A program made the position numbers and the translations under genes. Source: Salinimicrobium sediminis (GTDB lineage Bacteria > Bacteroidota > Bacteroidia > Flavobacteriales > Flavobacteriaceae). Taken from it: a stretch of 64,000 nt of DNA. This document shows positions 3,612 to 46,067 of this stretch, piece after piece (the first letter of the stretch is position 1; each line of letters opens with the position of its first letter). The notes under the pieces are model-generated. The model made no database searches and was not told the DNA's origin. It was given only the letters and a program-made list of their open reading frames with translations. Where the stretch lies: assembly GCF_900215295.1 (NCBI RefSeq), contig NZ_OCMF01000003.1:62001-126000 (forward strand), in the 5' to 3' direction.

Positions 3612-4459
3612 CAAAATTTATTTATTTTTTAAGCTGTTTTTTTATTGTTGCTTCTCTGGCAGCTCAGGAAATCCACTATGAATACATCAAGGTGCCGGAC
3701 AAATTTGAATTTCAGAAAGCCGAGAACCAATATCAGCTAAATGCCCTAACAGCATTTCTATTTGAAAAATATGGTTTTAAGACATTATATAAAAATGGAA
3801 TGCCGGCGGGTGTAAAACCTTGTGATGTATTAACTGCCAATGTGCATGATGATTCTAACCTGTTCAGAACAAAATTGTATGTAACTCTTACCGATTGTGA
3901 AAATCGTGTAGTATTTACAACAGAGACCGGTAGCAGCAGGGAAAAGGCTTTCAAACCTTCCCAACATGAAGCTTTGCGTAATGCCTTTGCTTCTTTTGAA
4001 AATGTTGAAATCACTTCCAAGGTTACTGAGAAGGTCGCTTCAGGCAATAATAATAATGAAAAAGAGCTTCCGGAAGAGATAGTTGTTGATCCAATTGTCA
4101 CTTCTGAAGAGATTGAAGAAGTCGCTGTTGAAGAAATCTCTTCTGAAGCAGAAGCAGAAATTACTCCTTCCGAAGCTGAGAGAAATCCTTCAGAAGCCGG
4201 AAAAATTCAAAAATTCACCAATGGTCCTGTTACCTATCTGCTCAGGAGCACTTCCGCAGGGTATGAGCTTTTCAGGGAAGGGGAGCAGCAGAAGTTTGCA
4301 AGTCTCATGAAGTCCGGTGGAGGGGATAATTTTTTATACTCTTCAAAAAATGTTTCTGGAAATGCCTTTTTTGACGGGCAGGGAAATCTTGTGGTGGAAT
4401 ATTTGGATCCCAATTCCCAACAGTTGATTTCAGTTATTTACAAAGTGCAGGCTCAATAG
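3608..4459 (+). CDS. Secreted hypothetical protein with Glu-rich linker
   Basis: A 283-residue protein with an N-terminal signal peptide ending near SLAAQE. An N-terminal domain of about 100 residues (starting EIHYEYIKVPDKF) is followed by a low-complexity Glu/Ser-rich linker at about residues 150-200 with repeated EEI and SEAE units. A short C-terminal domain (TYLLRSTSAGYELFREG and onward) follows. No catalytic motif was seen. It overlaps the DUF5723 gene by ATGA and is the last gene of the operon. Its stop overlaps the convergent rarA stop by seven bases. The periplasmic or surface location is inferred from the signal and linker. Confidence 0.72.
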   Translation: MTKFIYFLSCFFIVASLAAQEIHYEYIKVPDKFEFQKAENQYQLNALTAFLFEKYGFKTLYKNGMPAGVKPCDVLTANVHDDSNLFRTKLYVTLTDCENRVVFTTETGSSREKAFKPSQHEALRNAFASFENVEITSKVTEKVASGNNNNEKELPEEIVVDPIVTSEEIEEVAVEEISSEAEAEITPSEAERNPSEAGKIQKFTNGPVTYLLRSTSAGYELFREGEQQKFASLMKSGGGDNFLYSSKNVSGNAFFDGQGNLVVEYLDPNSQQLISVIYKVQAQ

Positions 4460-5730
4460 CCGTATTTGCCTTTCCATCGTTTCTGAAGAAAATCCCGCTG
4501 TGCCTGCTCCCGCTGGTTACTGCCGGGATGGAAAAATGTAGTGTTTGAAATTTCCTTCGGAAGGAATTCGGCTGCGGCAAAATTTCCTTCATAGCTGTGG
4601 GCGTATTTGTAATCTTCTCCATAGCCTAGATCCTTCATCAATTTAGTGGGTGCATTCCTTATTGCGAGTGGCACAGGAAGATCGCCAGTCTTTTTTACCA
4701 TCGCCTGCGCCTCATTAATAGCCATGTAAGAAGCATTGGATTTCGGGGATGTGGCAAGGTAAATACAGCATTGACTTAAAATTATTCGCGACTCCGGAAA
4801 TCCTATGGTCGAAACCGCCTGGAAAGTATTGTTGGCAAGGATCAAAGCAGTGGGATTGGCATTTCCAATATCTTCAGCAGCTAGAATAATCAGTCTTCGG
4901 GCGATGAACTTTACATCCTCTCCACCCTCGATCATTCTCGCAAGCCAGTAAACTGCTGCATTGGGATCACTACCGCGGATCGATTTAATGAATGCTGAAA
5001 TAATATCATAATGCTGTTCTCCTGTCTTGTCATACAGCACGGTGTTTTGCTGCACTTTGTGCAACACCATTTTGTTAGTTACCACGACTTTTTCATCCTC
5101 TTCAGACGTGATGATGAGTTCAAAGATATTGAGCAGTTTTCTGGCATCGCCGCCGCTAAGTCTTAGGAGAGCTTCGGTTTCTTCAAGAATTACTTCCTTT
5201 TTGGAAAGGATTTCGTCTTCTTTCAAAGCCCTTTCCAGCAGCGCGAGCAAGTCTTCTTTGGTAAAAGGATTGAGCACATACACCTGACTTCTGGAGAGCA
5301 GTGCCGGAATAACTTCAAAACTTGGATTTTCTGTGGTAGCGCCAATAAGGGTGATCCACCCTTTTTCTACAGCTCCTAAAAGGGAATCCTGCTGCGATTT
5401 GCTAAAGCGATGGATCTCGTCAATAAAAAGGATGGGATTTTTGGTGGTGAAAAGTCCGTCGCTTTTTTTGGCTTTTTCAATGACCTCCCGCACATCTTTT
5501 ACTCCGCTGCTAATAGCGCTAAGGGTAAAAAACGGCCTTCCGGACTCGGTGGCAATGATGTTGGCCAGGGTAGTTTTCCCCACTCCGGGTGGCCCCCAAA
5601 AGATCATGCTGGGAATGATGTCTCTTTTGATCTGTTTTCGCAGTGCAGCTTCAGGTCCTATGAGGTGCTGCTGACTCAGGTAATCATCAAGCGTCCGGGG
5701 ACGTAATCTTTCGGCCAATGGTTTATTCAT
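4453..5730 (-). CDS. rarA: Replication-associated recombination protein A (RarA/MgsA AAA+ ATPase)
   Basis: A 425-residue clamp-loader-like AAA+ ATPase that acts at stalled replication forks. Walker A is GPPGVGKTT at residues 46-54, Walker B is LFIDEIHRF near residues 97-105, and a sensor GATTENPSF follows. The C-terminal part has the family segments [15 protein letters not shown] and [10 protein letters not shown], used for tetramerisation and SSB/DNA interaction. Length matches the family (about 420-450). It starts at an ATG (5728-5730) and converges with the upstream operon, the two stops overlapping by seven bases with no room for a separate terminator. Confidence 0.95.
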
Positions 5731-5907
5731 GAAGTAAAAATAGTAAATTGGGTTTGGGTGCAGAAAACTTTCGGCTTTTTATAGAAGCAGGATGACGAAC
5801 TGGCATGAAGTGGAGAAGCAGGGAAGTAAGAGGTGCTTAAAAAGGCATTTTTGGAGGGGTGTGTCAGGAGAAAATTACAGTGGTTGAATTTTTGTTAGAC
5901 AGATTGT

Positions 5908-6663
5908 ATGAAACGTCAAAGGCTAAAAACTGAAGAACCATTCCAGTTTACAACCGGAGTTTTGGGATATCCACTTCTCTTTGTATTGCTCATCTGGATC
6001 GTGTTTTGGATGGAAATACGCTTTGGCTGGGACTTTACCAGTTTTGGAGTTTATCCCCGAAGGATAGAAGGACTAAGAGGTGTTCTTTTTTCTCCCTTCA
6101 TACACAGCGATATCAAACACCTGTTTCATAACACTATTCCGCTGTTCGTGCTTTCGTTATCCCTGTTTTACTTTTACAGAAAATTAAGCTGGAAAATCCT
6201 CTTTTTAGGTCTCCTGCTTTCAGGGTTTTTGACCTGGACCATTGGCAGGCCGGCCTATCATATTGGAGCTTCCGGAATAATATATTTATTGGCTGGTTTC
6301 CTCTTTTTTAAAGGGATCTTTTCAAAATATTTCAGGCTTGTTGCCCTTTCACTGATTGTTGTATTCCTGTACGGCGGACTACTTTGGTATATTACCCCTA
6401 TAGATCCCAAGATCTCCTGGGAAGGTCATTTAGCGGGATTGGTTTCGGGGCTTGTCTTTGCCCTGATCTACAAGAAAAATATTGCCCGGGCACCTAAATA
6501 TGAATGGGAAAAAGAAACTTATAAAGAAGAGGAAGATCCTTTTATGAGGCATTTTGATGAAAACGGAAATTTTATTGAAAACCCCTATGGAGAGGAAGAG
6601 CCTCAATACATTTACCATTTCAGGAAATCAGAAAAAGATGCAGATAGTTCAAAAGGGGCTTAG
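5908..6663 (+). CDS. Rhomboid-family intramembrane serine protease
   Basis: A 251-residue polytopic protein that should cleave transmembrane substrates inside the inner membrane. The catalytic serine sits in GASG at residues 120-123 (Ser122). The partner His is in the WEGHLAG segment (His174). The oxyanion-region motif HLFHN (His71-Asn75) is present, so the catalytic set is complete. About six membrane segments span residues 20-190. The C-terminal 60 residues form an acidic cytosolic tail. Physiological substrates are unknown. It is a single-gene unit between convergent rarA and rlmB. Confidence 0.9.
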   Translation: MKRQRLKTEEPFQFTTGVLGYPLLFVLLIWIVFWMEIRFGWDFTSFGVYPRRIEGLRGVLFSPFIHSDIKHLFHNTIPLFVLSLSLFYFYRKLSWKILFLGLLLSGFLTWTIGRPAYHIGASGIIYLLAGFLFFKGIFSKYFRLVALSLIVVFLYGGLLWYITPIDPKISWEGHLAGLVSGLVFALIYKKNIARAPKYEWEKETYKEEEDPFMRHFDENGNFIENPYGEEEPQYIYHFRKSEKDADSSKGA

Positions 6664-40902: not shown

Positions 40903-40924
40903 AATATCTTCAGGTATTCTGTAA

Positions 40925-40959
40925 AAAAAGCTCTGTAGAGGAATCTGCAGAGCTTTTTT
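40925..40959. terminator. Bidirectional terminator between gltA and the glycosyltransferase fusion gene
   Basis: GCTCTGTAGA (40930-40939) pairs with TCTGCAGAGC (40944-40953), one G-T wobble, loop GGAA, with A residues before and T residues after. The T run overlaps the stop codon of the minus-strand gene, so the hairpin serves both directions. Confidence 0.88.
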
Positions 40960-43900
40960 AATATCCACCTCTTATTAAAACTGGAGTATGAAGAATTTCC
41001 CGGCTTTGTAAAACTCCATCTGAATCTTTACTCGTTGCAGATAAAAGAATTTCATAGTTTTCATAATCTTCAGGAATTTTAACATTTATCGATTTTCCTT
41101 CTCCAAGATCACGGGCCGCTAAGGGATTTCCAAAGATGTCATTTTTGATGAGTTTCCATTCAAAAATGAAATCTTCTGAAATTTGAGAACCCTGAAGCCA
41201 ATTGTTGTCTTCATAGAGTGCAGCATGATAAGTTACAGTTTGGTGTGGGAGTAATGGAATGGCAGGTTTTACAATTTTTATTGTGGAAAACACTCGATCC
41301 TTTTGAAACCTGAAATGATCTTGAGCTGTATAATACGTTCTTTTCTTTCGGCCGGAGAAATCCAACAATCCGTCAAAAGATAGCCTGTGGCTGTATCTTT
41401 CATCCTGCCAGTTTTCAAGTATAATATTGGTTTCAGGTAAAGAAGGCACTGTAGCAATAAGGTCGGCAGGAGTGGAACTCAAAAAAACAGGTATATTTCT
41501 ATCCTTGGAGAAGGCTAAGGTTTTTTTAAGGTGGGTAGAATCCTTCAGCATTAGGCCAAAAGCATCCACGGGAATAATTTGATCCAGCTCAAGGAGTTCT
41601 GCAGGGGTTGACCTTTTAAGGGGGAGATCAAGGAATATTAACTTTTCAGGATCAATCTCTTTTATTCTTTTAATTAGATAGGCCAGCCAATCTGCATAGG
41701 CTTGTTTTTGGTAGAACAGTAAGGGTTTGGAGTAGTAAAGATCGAGATTGTAGTTGAAGCTGTAAGAGACAATGGCTGGATTAGATTTTAATTCTTCGAC
41801 TTTTTCAAGAATATATTCTGTAAGCTTCGCATTTTCAGAATCTCGGTTTATAAACCCTTGAGAGAGATCGATGTCAAATTCGTAGATCCCCTTTAAATCC
41901 CTTTCCTCAATGTACTTGAGGAGATTATATTCATAGACGTTTCCGCCTTTGAAATGAACTGTGTTGATGCCTGCTTCTTTCATCTTTTTAAAATCGGCAA
42001 GCAAATGTTCACGTGTAAGCACGTAATAATTATCCTTCCAATCTTCTCCTTTCTTATATCTAACTCCTCTTATGTTTTTCACCGGTTTATTTTCCGTTTT
42101 CCCAGCAATAAGAGCAGGAGAAGTATTTGAGAAAAGAGGGGTCTCATCGAAGTGAGCACTTATAATAGACAGGGAATCTGTGGTCCAGTCAAGGTAGGGC
42201 CTTTTGTACCAGTTATTGACCGGAATATTATTGTCGTAGGCGCTGTTAAATAGAACCACAGCGCTAATCTCTGTGAGGACCCCGGAGATAGAGGTCATTG
42301 CATTCTTCAGCCAGGCATTCTGATTACCGTTGAGATTTAGAGAACCAAATTCTGCCAGCATTACAGGTTTTCTTGTGAACCAGTGCAGCTTATTTCTAAA
42401 AGGAAGGTAAAGATCCTCAAAAGCAACTTCCTCACCATTCTGGTTTAGCCCCTGATAGTTTAACATGGTTAGACCTACCCAATCCACATATTGGTCTCCG
42501 GGATAATATTGTTCCATTCCTTGTGGATCCCAGGGATTCCATACCATCATCACTTCATTTGCACCCCGATCTTTTAATATTTCATGGACATGTCTCCAGG
42601 CTGCTTTAAAATCTGCCGGAGTGTTTCCTCCATCGGCAGACCAGGGATATCCGGGATTATTAAATTCATGAGCAAATCTTAGAAATACCGGTTTATTGTA
42701 TTTTGCCAACTTGTCGGCAAATTTTGTAATGTAATCGTCAAAAAGACCCTCGTGGATGTATTTAAGTACTCTCCTGTTTTCCCGCAGATCAGAATTTTCT
42801 TCGGCCAGGTCGAAATCTGAACTCCAGGGTTCCCAGGTGATCATGGGAACTGCATTTTTCACTGCTATGCTATTAAGAAGCTGGTCCGGAAAATTTTCCA
42901 CGTTATCCTCGTTCCAGGCCATGTACAGCGAAATGATATCAAAATTAAGATTGTTCCTGGCTTCCAGGGCATTAATATCTTCAAGATCAATCCAGCCGGT
43001 GTCTTCGGGGGGATGAAAGATGCCCAGTAACTTTCCTGTTTTTTTAATGTAATAATTAGCTTCCACATTCTCCCATCTGTTGTTTTTCATTTGTTGCTTA
43101 AAAGCCAAAGTTGAAAAAAGTGCAATGATCAATAGGGGCAGAGCTCCTTTTCTTGTTATAGTGAAAGCTGTATGGAAAAGGTTTCTAAGTTTTTGTTTTG
43201 TTGAAAACAGGTTCTTAACCGTGGAGTCGCTTAAGTTTGATCTAAGGATTCTGTTTTGATTAGTAACCTTCACTGTAAGATAAATACCAAACAACATTAT
43301 GCAGGTATTGAAAAAAGCAAAACCTGCCATGAAAATGGAAAAAGGAGTGAAATCCCTGCGCAAACCATAAATAATGGCAAATACAGAAATAACAGCAACA
43401 GCAATGTTCGGAATTACGATCTTCAGATTTGTATTGAATTCACTTTGTTTAGGGGTAGGCAGGTAGGGAACATTTTTATTAAAGATGGTATAAACAAATC
43501 CAAGCATATAGATCCACCAGGTATTGATCTGGAGTAAGCCTCCTGTTATATGAAATCCTCTTTCTTCTTTTTCGATCACCCATTTTTGTACAAAAGCCCT
43601 TATCAATAATGCACTCATAGCCACGGGAAGTAAAGCAAGAATAAAATCTATAATATTTCCTTCCCAGGGGGTAGTTGAAAAAACAAGGGCTAGTACAGGA
43701 ATCAAGAAATTTAAAAAGTACATGACTCCACTCAGGTAATGCAAAGGGAGGATACCGAAGTGTATCTTCTGTCTTACATTAAGCTTTTTAAACACTTTTG
43801 GATAAACATTGAATAAGAGGTCGAAAGTGCCACGCGCCCATTTCAATTGTTGTTTGTAATATGTGGTAAGATTTGAAGGTGCCAGTCCGCGGGCAATAAC

Positions 43901-44734
43901 TTCGGGAACATACACTGCTTTCCATCCCTTGGCATAAAGCAACATAGCGGTATGCATATCTTCACACAAACCGGGAGCATGTCCTCCTATGCTATCAAGA
44001 GCTTTTCTTCTGAAAACACAATTGGCTCCAATAGCATTTACAGTTTCATATGAATTAAGGGTCATCATCATTGGCCCGTAGAACTGAAAGGTCTGTTCGG
44101 CCGCTCCTCTTGCCACCAGAGTATCCTTGATGTTGTAGTAAGATTGTACAGTTTGTACAAATCCAATGTCAGGATCGGCAAAGTAGGGTAGAATAACATC
44201 CAGGAAATCCGGTTCCGGAATATGATCGGGGTCAAGAACCACACAAATATCTCCGGTTGCAACTGTCCTCAATGCATTATTAATATTTCCTGCCTTAGCG
44301 TCTTTTCGATTATTACGGGTGACGTGTATGATCCCATTCCTTTCACAAAAATCCTTTAAATATGGATCATTTGCTTCATCACATAAATAGGCTGTGTGAG
44401 GATGGGTAATCTGGGTAATGGCTTCCAGAGTGGTAACGATCATTTGGTAAGGTTCTCCGGGAAAATAGGTGGTGAGGATGTCTACTGTTACGTCGAGAGA
44501 GGTAGAAGGTTTTTCCGGAACTGAAATATTTGCATAGTTGTACCACATGTACAGCTTCTTAAAAATGCTGTAGGAGATGGTAATAAAAAGCAAAAGAAAG
44601 AGGTAATTATTTCCCTGATGTTCGGGTTGGAGGAAGAAGAACAAAAAATTAGCTATGCTGAAAAGTGCTAGCAGGATCAAAAGTTTAATAGTTCTTTCTT
44701 CTCTTACCGTAGGTGCTTTAATACTATTCCTCAT
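40958..44734 (-). CDS. Polytopic GT2 glycosyltransferase fused to GH26-like hydrolase and degenerate TIM-barrel/Ig module
   Basis: 1258 residues, an unusual multi-domain enzyme. Two N-terminal membrane helices (about 17-36, 43-61) precede a processive family-2 glycosyltransferase (about 80-310). Its substrate motifs are CDEAND (Asp119), LDPDH (Asp168, Asp170), LCEDM (Asp259) and QQLKW (295-299) in place of the usual Q(Q/R)xRW. Further helices lie at about 325-352, 361-380, 402-420, 437-457, 465-488 and 530-547. An extracytoplasmic GH26-like TIM barrel (about 560-850) has RFAHEFN (acid/base Glu690) and MLAEFGS (nucleophile Glu795). A second barrel (about 885-1140) resembles the neighbouring lipoprotein but has NLD instead of the catalytic NE. 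A C-terminal Ig-like domain follows. I infer inner-membrane polymer synthesis coupled to periplasmic cleavage or transfer; polymer and exporter are unknown. It overlaps the upstream gene by 11 bases. Confidence 0.85.
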   Translation of the reverse strand: MRNSIKAPTVREERTIKLLILLALFSIANFLFFFLQPEHQGNNYLFLLLFITISYSIFKKLYMWYNYANISVPEKPSTSLDVTVDILTTYFPGEPYQMIVTTLEAITQITHPHTAYLCDEANDPYLKDFCERNGIIHVTRNNRKDAKAGNINNALRTVATGDICVVLDPDHIPEPDFLDVILPYFADPDIGFVQTVQSYYNIKDTLVARGAAEQTFQFYGPMMMTLNSYETVNAIGANCVFRRKALDSIGGHAPGLCEDMHTAMLLYAKGWKAVYVPEVIARGLAPSNLTTYYKQQLKWARGTFDLLFNVYPKVFKKLNVRQKIHFGILPLHYLSGVMYFLNFLIPVLALVFSTTPWEGNIIDFILALLPVAMSALLIRAFVQKWVIEKEERGFHITGGLLQINTWWIYMLGFVYTIFNKNVPYLPTPKQSEFNTNLKIVIPNIAVAVISVFAIIYGLRRDFTPFSIFMAGFAFFNTCIMLFGIYLTVKVTNQNRILRSNLSDSTVKNLFSTKQKLRNLFHTAFTITRKGALPLLIIALFSTLAFKQQMKNNRWENVEANYYIKKTGKLLGIFHPPEDTGWIDLEDINALEARNNLNFDIISLYMAWNEDNVENFPDQLLNSIAVKNAVPMITWEPWSSDFDLAEENSDLRENRRVLKYIHEGLFDDYITKFADKLAKYNKPVFLRFAHEFNNPGYPWSADGGNTPADFKAAWRHVHEILKDRGANEVMMVWNPWDPQGMEQYYPGDQYVDWVGLTMLNYQGLNQNGEEVAFEDLYLPFRNKLHWFTRKPVMLAEFGSLNLNGNQNAWLKNAMTSISGVLTEISAVVLFNSAYDNNIPVNNWYKRPYLDWTTDSLSIISAHFDETPLFSNTSPALIAGKTENKPVKNIRGVRYKKGEDWKDNYYVLTREHLLADFKKMKEAGINTVHFKGGNVYEYNLLKYIEERDLKGIYEFDIDLSQGFINRDSENAKLTEYILEKVEELKSNPAIVSYSFNYNLDLYYSKPLLFYQKQAYADWLAYLIKRIKEIDPEKLIFLDLPLKRSTPAELLELDQIIPVDAFGLMLKDSTHLKKTLAFSKDRNIPVFLSSTPADLIATVPSLPETNIILENWQDERYSHRLSFDGLLDFSGRKKRTYYTAQDHFRFQKDRVFSTIKIVKPAIPLLPHQTVTYHAALYEDNNWLQGSQISEDFIFEWKLIKNDIFGNPLAARDLGEGKSINVKIPEDYENYEILLSATSKDSDGVLQSREILHTPVLIRGGY

Positions 44735-46067
44735 TCGCAGGATTTAGGACGTAAAAAGGAATGTTTGCAGTGGCATAATACCCAGTATTGTTGGTGATCA
44801 TAAGATGAAGCCGGTAGGGGCCTTCTTGTACGGGTGCTTCAAATCTTACCCGATTATCTTCAACATGAAATTCCATTCCCGGGATCACCTGACTTATGTG
44901 GTAAGCATACCAGGATTCTTCTCTTATTTCCCAATGGAAGGTATAGCCTTTAGGCGGCCTATCAAAAAATATTTCTGCAATTGCCGGTTGGCCTGCTGCC
45001 AGTATAATATCATCCAGTGCGCCTTTTTCATTGAGTAATATATACTCGAGTTGCGGTCCGGGAAATTCCGCATCTAATCCTTTCCAGATTTTAGCAAGTT
45101 CAAATACTGCCTGACTTTTCAAATGATTTGGTTCGAAAAGGCTGTACCAGGTTGGCGTGATCTCATTCTTTTGCCCCCAATAAAAAACAAAACTCCCCAG
45201 AGAATTACTGTTTTTAAGAGGTTTAATATAATCCCGGTATCTCTGTATTATTTGTTCTGCTTTTTTTGTGCTCGTCTCTTCTATGGGTACACCCCACGAA
45301 GTAAGTGGAGCTTCCCATGGCCCGTTGACACCCCACTCGGTGATCACATGAGGTCCGTTCCACAAAGGTGCGATAGGTTTTAAACGATCAGTAAAGGTGC
45401 TTAGGGATCCAAAGGAATTAAAGGAAATAAAATCCAGTTGGGGACTTTTCAGTTCTATAGAAAGCACCCTCAATTTATTTGCACCTATAGTTGTTGTACT
45501 TACGGGATGATCGGGGTCTAACTCATGAATAAGATCTATTAGAATATTAAATCGTTCATAGAATTTTGTGTCCTTGTAGAAGTAGGGGTAATATAATTCA
45601 TTTCCTAAATTCCAATATAACAGGGCAGGGTGATCTTTGTGCTGCGTAACCACTCTGGCAACCCTGCTGTACATTTCTTCAAAAAGATCATTGTCTTCAT
45701 AGAAAATACCATCTGTATGTTCTTTAGGCATGGGAATGTCGACAACAGCCGCAAGACCCAATAGTTGCGCTTTATCCAAAGTGCTTTTAAGATCAATGGT
45801 GTCATAAATGCGGGCCGTATTCGCACCGGCATCTTTTAGCTCCTCTAAAAAATCTTTGTGTGCTGCAGCACCATGCATATAAAATGGTTCCCCATTGCGA
45901 ATAAGCTGGTATTTTCCTTTGTTTTTTGAAATGTGTACGGCCGGAACAAATTTATGCTCAGATTCCTGATTTTCACAGGAAGAACACAAAATGAGGAGTA
46001 GAGGGAAAAGAAAATTTTTCGCCCTGAATCTAATATTGGATAATTTAATTTCTAAGGCTCGTAACAA
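44724..46067 (-). CDS. GH2-like TIM-barrel lipoprotein with C-terminal Ig-like domain
   Basis: Up to 447 residues. A lipoprotein-type signal ends near Cys31 (LILCSSC). The barrel (about 50-330) resembles the GH2 catalytic domain: RNGEPFYMHGAAAHKDF, GANTARIYDT, acid/base Asn156-Glu157 in YWNLGNELYY, and nucleophile Glu244 in VITEWGVNGPW. Both catalytic Glu are intact. A C-terminal Ig-like domain (about 360-440) ends the protein. The only in-frame conventional start is TTG at 46065-46067, 12 bases after an in-frame stop. That TTG is also the end of a TACATTTG promoter-like box, so an ATT start at codon 12 (giving a neat signal peptide) should be considered. It overlaps the glycosyltransferase fusion by 11 bases; the two form an operon and probably trim or modify its product. 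Confidence 0.8.
   Translation of the reverse strand: MLRALEIKLSNIRFRAKNFLFPLLLILCSSCENQESEHKFVPAVHISKNKGKYQLIRNGEPFYMHGAAAHKDFLEELKDAGANTARIYDTIDLKSTLDKAQLLGLAAVVDIPMPKEHTDGIFYEDNDLFEEMYSRVARVVTQHKDHPALLYWNLGNELYYPYFYKDTKFYERFNILIDLIHELDPDHPVSTTTIGANKLRVLSIELKSPQLDFISFNSFGSLSTFTDRLKPIAPLWNGPHVITEWGVNGPWEAPLTSWGVPIEETSTKKAEQIIQRYRDYIKPLKNSNSLGSFVFYWGQKNEITPTWYSLFEPNHLKSQAVFELAKIWKGLDAEFPGPQLEYILLNEKGALDDIILAAGQPAIAEIFFDRPPKGYTFHWEIREESWYAYHISQVIPGMEFHVEDNRVRFEAPVQEGPYRLHLMITNNTGYYATANIPFYVLNPANEE

Follow-up and report, generated by a model that had tools for sequence, protein, structure and literature searches.

A GT2 synthase fused to predicted lichenase-type GH26 and degenerate GH158 domains, and paired with a GH158 gene, in Salinimicrobium sediminis and other Bacteroidota

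Introduction

What does a membrane glycosyltransferase do with a glycoside hydrolase in its own chain? This question is raised by an open reading frame (ORF) at 40958-44734 on the minus strand of a 64,000-nucleotide stretch of the Salinimicrobium sediminis genome (NZ_OCMF01000003.1, positions 62,001 to 126,000; this whole stretch is called the window), which a preliminary description had presented as a fused polysaccharide synthase and hydrolase. By computation we established the architecture of this chain, its folds, its conserved catalytic residues and its pairing with a second gene, encoding a GH158 enzyme, which adds to what had been described before. The two genes are best explained, with a probability of about 55%, as an inner-membrane synthase whose product, a glucan with beta-(1,3) links and perhaps of mixed linkage, would be trimmed or released at its exit.

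The fused synthase chain

Translation of ORF 40958-44734 gave a stop-free chain of 1258 amino acids (aa), and its coordinates and motifs were as previously listed. The parts of the chain are:

40958..44734, minus strand: fused synthase, GT2, transmembrane (TM) region, GH26, predicted pseudo-GH158 barrel and immunoglobulin-like (Ig) domain, 1258 aa (translation, Pfam, AlphaFold2 (AF2), family)
44534..44707, minus strand: TM helices 1-2, residues 10-67 (AF2 helices 10-34 and 43-67; hydropathy)
43745..44497, minus strand: GT2 catalytic core, residues 80-330, with D85, D119, D168/D170, E258-D259 and QQLKW 295-299 (row conservation; BcsA alignment)
43274..43732, minus strand: TM helices 3-6 and interfacial helices, residues 335-487 (AF2 helices 335-352, 361-385, 437-460 and 464-487; Foldseek best match BcsA 4p00)
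43073..43273, minus strand: TM helix 7 and, before it, a basic linker that is probably cytosolic, residues 488-554 (AF2 helices 503-529 and 531-554; hydropathy)
42215..43042, minus strand: GH26 domain, probably of CtLic26A (lichenase) type, residues 565-840 (profile and fold match)
42665..42667, minus strand: codon of the GH26 acid/base Glu690 (Glu in 82/82)
42350..42352, minus strand: codon of the GH26 nucleophile Glu795 (Glu in 81/82)
41315..42097, minus strand: predicted pseudo-GH158 barrel, residues 880-1140, without the catalytic Glu pair (profile alignment, fold search, column counts)
40961..41302, minus strand: Ig-like domain of the pseudo-GH158 module, residues 1145-1258 (AF2 model of the module; BuGH158 is likewise laid out as barrel and Ig)

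Pfam placed both GT2 (8e-24; best stretch 101-302) and GH26 (8e-11; 667-757) in this chain. Among solved structures, BcsA was matched by residues 32-380 (7e-31), and residues 594-837 separately matched Clostridium thermocellum endoglucanase H, the lichenase CtLic26A (4e-18). The AF2 model of residues 1-1150, built from 62 sequences, reached a predicted local distance difference test score (pLDDT) of 90.3 and a predicted template modelling score (pTM) of 0.81. It places two helices before the GT2 core and four after it; next come a basic stretch (residues 488-530) and, at 531-554, the seventh helix. Because the number of crossings after GT2 is even, and judging also by charge, the basic linker would lie in the cytosol and the C-terminal half of the chain in the periplasm.

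Relatives were collected from one genome per species, 84,980 species in all, with two patterns taken from the GT2 part, and 305 stretches were found. The family counts refer to 82 members, namely the window and the members in the best-scoring 80 of these 305 loci (one locus, L093, has two), a set that leans towards complete chains. In 78 of the 82 members the chain is uninterrupted over at least 1200 aa; in three a contig end truncates it (L038, L073, L110), and in one (L101) it is broken. An assembly error that joined two genes is thereby excluded, and the fusion is a real and conserved arrangement.

Conservation along the chain is highest in the GT2 core. The residues D85, D119, D168, D170, E258, D259, Q295, K298 and W299 do not vary among 81 of 82 rows, and the 82nd row is a fragment that lacks them. 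The modelled GT2 fold, with its TM channel, is BcsA-like, and the BcsA structure 4p00 was the top Foldseek match (1e-24). However, the NCBIfam cellulose synthase model TIGR03030 covered residues 75-501 with 144.7 bits, far under its cut-off of 699, no PilZ domain was found in the chain by the Pfam scan, and the set of PilZ, BcsB, BcsC and BcsZ that marks a bcs system does not accompany the unit. The BcsA/BcsZ system shares the GT2 fold, the channel, the motifs and the presence of a hydrolase with the unit, but BcsZ, of family GH8, is encoded by a separate gene in the E. coli operon.

The GH26 domain

For residues 560-850 a GH26-type barrel had been proposed, and this was borne out by the model, in which strands at 569, 600, 629, 683, 728, 752, 791 and 823 form an eight-stranded barrel (569-829). 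Glu690 stands directly after strand 4 and Glu795 on strand 7; their counterparts in the CtLic26A chain are Glu109 and Glu222 (numbered from the alignment), the catalytic residues of that enzyme. The assignment of both residues to a GH26 domain in one chain with GT2 is thus upheld.

Profile and modelled fold agree in predicting a lichenase-like domain of the CtLic26A type. A profile built from 38 GH26 sequences matched CtLic26A at 5e-40 and other GH26 enzymes at 2e-11 or weaker. The Foldseek template modelling scores (TMt) were 0.80-0.84 for CtLic26A entries (0.84 for 2vi0), and lower for a mixed-linkage xylanase (0.65), a beta-1,3-xylanase (0.60) and mannanases (0.45-0.58). A function as mannanase is not supported, CtLic26A being far nearer by profile and fold.

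The GH158 partner gene and the third domain

Upstream of the synthase gene, and overlapping its start by 11 bases, lies the partner gene:

44724..46067, minus strand: GH158 partner, 447 aa, a probable lipoprotein whose TTG start is uncertain (profile E 1e-95 to GH158(Pro), 9oro, and 6e-89 to BuGH158, 6pal)
45597..45599, minus strand: codon of the GH158 acid/base Glu157 (Glu in 81/81; counterpart in the alignment of the Glu of GNE in 6pal, E137 of BuGH158 by motif)
45336..45338, minus strand: codon of the GH158 nucleophile Glu244 (Glu in 81/81; counterpart in the alignment of the Glu of TEWG in 6pal, E220 of BuGH158 by motif)

The homology of the partner extends over barrel and Ig domain. A crude lipobox pattern was present in 50 of 81 partners, including that of the window, and most of the others start with a hydrophobic stretch. 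The partner ends within 300 bases of the synthase start in 79 of 82 members and overlaps it in 64 of these 79 (longest-frame starts). The three members without a direct partner are L081, where the partner frame is broken, L109, at a contig edge, and L101, where the partner precedes the broken front piece.

In a sample of the phylum, a chain of the fused clade was found in 14 of 395 genomes, the own genome included (counted from the match list). Eight of the 14 carry GT2, GH26 and the third domain (one contig-cut), four carry GT2 with a remnant of GH26 (L010, L013, L014, L015) and two carry GT2 and the third domain without GH26 (L011, L012). A GH158-family frame stands beside the synthase in 12 of 12 of these loci with a visible neighbourhood (L003-L008 and L010-L015; L014 partly cut), and some of these genomes seem to recur in the best-80 set (L004/L050, L005/L080, L006/L067). 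Since GH158 is kept even in all six loci with decayed or absent GH26, GT2 and GH158 form the constant core of the unit.

The third domain, which had been read as a second glycosidase-like barrel with an Ig domain, belongs to no Pfam family and gave nothing significant by phmmer; its best match by sequence in the PDB (0.17) was an antibody. Comparison of its profile with that of the partner gene by hhalign aligned 323 columns with a probability of 99.5% (E 4e-23). The barrel alone reached 99.2% and the Ig part alone weakly 29.9%, whereas control comparisons with GH26 and GT2 stayed at or below 1.5%. In a Foldseek search with its AF2 model (pLDDT 93.6) the top six PDB matches were all GH158 chains. 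The column of the GH158 acid/base holds Glu in 0 of 82 members and that of the nucleophile in 16 of 82, and no member has both. The proposed fold therefore stood up, but an active second glycosidase is ruled out by the missing Glu pair, and on profile and model the third domain appears to be a degenerate GH158, a pseudo-enzyme domain within the synthase chain.

Proposed function of the two-gene unit

With both a lichenase-type GH26 and a GH158 associated with a single synthase, the product is most likely a beta-(1,3)-containing glucan; this narrows down a polymer that had been left entirely open. GT2 would polymerise a nucleotide sugar in the cytosol, most likely uridine diphosphate (UDP)-glucose, and the chain would be threaded out through a BcsA-type channel. 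The seventh helix would anchor the GH26 domain on the periplasmic side, presumably at the channel exit, where it may cleave or transglycosylate the emerging chain. The pseudo-GH158 module would no longer cut; its probable task is to bind and steer the beta-(1,3)-containing chain or to serve as a docking site for the partner. That partner GH158, probably membrane-anchored, would cut beta-(1,3) links, and together these parts could control how long the chain grows, remove blockages or set a soluble glucan free. Cleavage, length control or transglycosylation at the exit had already been suggested for the fusion; the covalent joining holds, the periplasmic side is predicted by the topology, and from these two such a processing at the exit follows as the natural reading.

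In a bolder and more tentative version, the unit would be a self-contained machine that makes, holds and cuts a beta-(1,3;1,4) or beta-(1,3)-rich glucan, with an active lichenase in the synthase chain, the dead copy of the partner's GH158 as a chain-binding ruler and a product of defined length. A mixed-linkage glucan would suit both GH26 and GH158. However, the GH158 of Bacteroides uniformis (BuGH158), an endo-beta-(1,3)-glucanase, is much more active on laminarin than on mixed-linkage glucan according to the available text of PMC7157763. The mixed-linkage synthase BgsA joins BcsA rather than the fused clade in both of our GT2 trees (100/93 in the first, 100/98 in the second). The titles of the PDB entries of GH158(Pro) name laminaritetraose and a mixed-linkage oligosaccharide as ligands soaked into its crystals.

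Several points weigh against the proposal that the unit makes a glucan with beta-(1,3) links, besides the preference of BuGH158 for laminarin. The grouping of BgsA with BcsA implies that GT2 sequence does not predict the sugar, and the GT2 tree is not decisive as a guide to linkage. Wherever a row extends over the QxxRW motif of such synthases, it reads QxxKW instead. GH26 has decayed in four loci of the phylum sample and is absent from two, so its catalysis is not always needed. No outer-membrane exporter adjoining the pair is conserved across the 81 neighbourhoods analysed. Finally, GH158 is a nutrient enzyme in polysaccharide utilisation loci (PULs), and the partner could act on foreign glucan.

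Alternative explanations and known systems

A periplasmic (osmoregulated-type) or cyclic glucan synthase, in which GH26 would act as a transglycosylase that cuts and then closes or shortens chains retained in the periplasm, is unlikely, but it fits several observations. No exporter is conserved beside the pair, and the partner GH158 looks membrane-anchored; however, CtLic26A is a hydrolase. The Pseudomonas protein 'Orphan'/NdvB likewise combines a BcsA-like GT2 with a periplasmic glycosidase in one chain, and it has been proposed to cut and transfer the chain at the exit and to make a cyclic beta-(1,3)-glucan (PMC10237404). In that protein the glycosidase is a GH17 at the N-terminus, whereas here it is a GH26 at the C-terminus, and the available text of the same paper mentions neither a pseudo-GH158 domain nor a GH158 partner. 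In 5 of 81 neighbourhoods a gene of the sulfatase/LtaS type is found close to the pair, and the glucans of NdvB carry glycerol phosphate (PMC10237404), but such a gene accompanies few copies only.

The claim that the fusion is without precedent cannot be kept in view of this GT2-GH17 protein, which by analogy serves as a mechanistic precedent for a cut at the exit. A further precedent is the cyclic beta-1,2-glucan synthase with its fused phosphorylase domain. Fusions of GT2 with a glycosidase are therefore already known in kind, and GT2-GH26 with a pseudo-GH158 domain and a GH158 partner is a new form.

Less probable still is a heteropolysaccharide system like aps of rhizobia, in which GT2 would make an arabinose- or xylose-containing polymer and GH26 would be its endoglycanase. 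In Sinorhizobium meliloti the operon uxs1-uxe-apsS-apsH1-apsE-apsH2 yields an arabinose-containing polysaccharide (PMC7902896, as far as its available text goes). ApsS (GT2) and, in the place of ApsE, a GH26 by Pfam are encoded side by side, and in the rhizobial and Sulfitobacter records examined the adjoining GT2 and GH26 genes are preceded by genes of the UDP-glucuronate decarboxylase and galE types. The aps-type GH26 genes are matched by the family GH26 profile at 1e-24 to 4e-29. However, these are separate genes accompanied by UDP-sugar and DUF995 genes, the aps stretches examined carry no GH158 annotation, and the closest solved GH26 of the fused chain is the lichenase. Frames like the decarboxylase or galE of Sinorhizobium medicae occur in 3 of 81 neighbourhoods (L046, L070, L073; the window is not among them) and DUF995-like frames in 0 of 81.

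The trees also bear on this alternative. In the first GT2 tree (37 rows; 10 of 34 inner branches starred) the ApsS group is placed inside an unresolved fork with the fused rows. The second tree (33 rows, without the four long branches OpgH, PgaC, the own-genome GT2 and L018; 17 of 30 inner branches starred) splits ApsS from all other rows (100/100, branch 6.5) and attaches it at an unresolved fork, so the monophyly of the fused clade is not settled by the GT2 trees. The GH26 tree parts the aps sequences from those of Bacteroidota (100/99). A fusion in Burkholderia multivorans (L115; 880 aa, 3824-6463, NZ_CP143551.1) has the same order GT2-TM-GH26 in one chain but lacks pseudo-GH158. Since its GT2 and GH26 both group with aps (100/100 and 100/99), it probably arose independently of the Bacteroidota fusion; its neighbours are presumably decarboxylase-, galE- and UDP-glucose-dehydrogenase-like frames. 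In another relative (L016) a GT2 of the present type and a GH26 are separate neighbouring genes, accompanied by a TPR gene; this GH26 stands weakly (84/77) at the base of the fused set, and the position of the GT2 differs between the two GT2 trees.

BgsA (bgsBA; PMC10374906, PMC9495663, in the text available), whose product would be a lichenase substrate, is a GT2 like the present one, but it has no fused hydrolase and works with an HlyD-type partner, and none like it was found in the 81 neighbourhoods. The same fusion is seen in DMZ48_06700 of Robertkochia solimangrovi, a strain with a locus (L045) among our members that may hold this very gene. In 2022 this combination of GH26 and GT2 in one gene was called previously unreported, and the gene was listed as 'GH26 + GT2 sub-family 3', a beta-mannanase; partner, pseudo domain and role are not described in the available text (PMC9690682). 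The unit had been put forward as an undescribed system, which is nearly right: in the open-licence literature we found no description of the two-gene unit, and the fusion itself is mentioned only in that paper, as far as the texts were available.

A catabolic locus, in which the hydrolases would degrade algal beta-glucan or mannan and GT2 would be incidental, is what the mannanase label implies, and it could draw on the place of GH158 in a beta-(1,3)-glucan PUL of B. uniformis (PMC7157763) and on the counting of the R. solimangrovi gene among lignocellulose enzymes (PMC9690682), but it is very improbable given the invariant GT2 motifs, the GT2 core as best conserved part of the chain and the rarity of SusC-like (7 of 81) and SusD-like frames (9 of 81 neighbourhoods; named from their sequence).

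Distribution and genomic setting

The best 80 of the 305 loci belong to Bacteroidota, including Christiangramia, Salinimicrobium, Chitinophaga, Pedobacter, Neolewinella and Prolixibacteraceae, and to a few Balneolaceae bins; the nearest by identity among them are Christiangramia and Salinimicrobium (53-57%). In a sample of the family, 12 of 199 genomes matched at E 1e-100 or better: in ten the match spans almost the whole chain, in one it covers residues 4-560 and lies in a 976-aa frame, and in one it is confined to GT2. S. sediminis has a single copy of the fused chain and one further, weakly similar GT2. Two copies of the unit occur in Chitinophaga japonensis (L093, a tandem pair), Gelidibacter sediminis (L101 and L104) and Chitinophaga deserti (L083 and L098); in one of the two copies of G. 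sediminis the synthase frame is broken in two.

The unit of the window is flanked by gltA and an arginine-deiminase-like gene. From 60 matched genomes, 30 gltA loci were examined, and the unit was present at this site only in the own genome and in its genus mate (G400). At 27 of the other 28 loci the genes that flank the unit in the window lie close together; the remaining locus is cut by a contig end. At least five of these 28 genomes (G406, G410, G414, G419, G432) have the unit elsewhere, and it is therefore an accessory cassette found at varying genomic places. Between the window and the genus mate the fused chain is 55% identical and citrate synthase 93%, so that the unit has diverged much faster than the genes beside it. 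Compared with Salinimicrobium catena (L035), identity is 79% in the GT2 core, 51% in GH26, 44% in the third-domain barrel and 45% in the partner; the parts of the unit predicted to be periplasmic change fastest.

Apart from the synthase/GH158 pair, no gene family occurs in more than 17 of the 81 neighbourhoods. The sulfatase/LtaS-type membrane protein mentioned above (L042:1849-6146, L046, L055, L057, L070) stands beside a protein of 570-580 aa with two GH26-like halves, whose family occurs near the unit in 11 of 81 neighbourhoods. One member of each of these two families was scanned, and GH26 was under the Pfam cut-off. Possibly both are decoration enzymes. In five Robertkochia loci (L045, 12809-15249; L049, L061, L063, L065) a DltB/MBOAT-type O-acyltransferase gene (the L045 member was scanned) and a family-less gene of 321-362 aa trail the unit on the opposite strand, a hint of O-acylation of the polymer in this genus. 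The loci L019-L031 (family f18) hold a different GT2 operon; L019, the one scanned, has a TPR protein, GT2 and GH8 in a cellulose-like layout.

Between gltA and the convergent synthase gene the following element was read directly from the sequence:

40923..40959, no strand: A-run, ten-pair hairpin and T-run

It is likely a two-way terminator for both genes. The hairpin is absent from the list of the pattern scan, whose promoter and terminator counts were near chance.

Significance

Bacteroidota are known mainly for eating, rather than making, glucans of this kind. Chain length and exit are hard to study where synthase, hydrolase and guide are encoded by separate genes, and here two genes would hold all of them. 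The relatives offer ready-made controls, namely the unfused genes (L016), the chains without GH26 (L011, L012) and those in which GH26 has decayed (L010, L013-L015). The unit predicts a glucan that is cut by both lichenase and GH158, and this would correct the mannanase label now in print.

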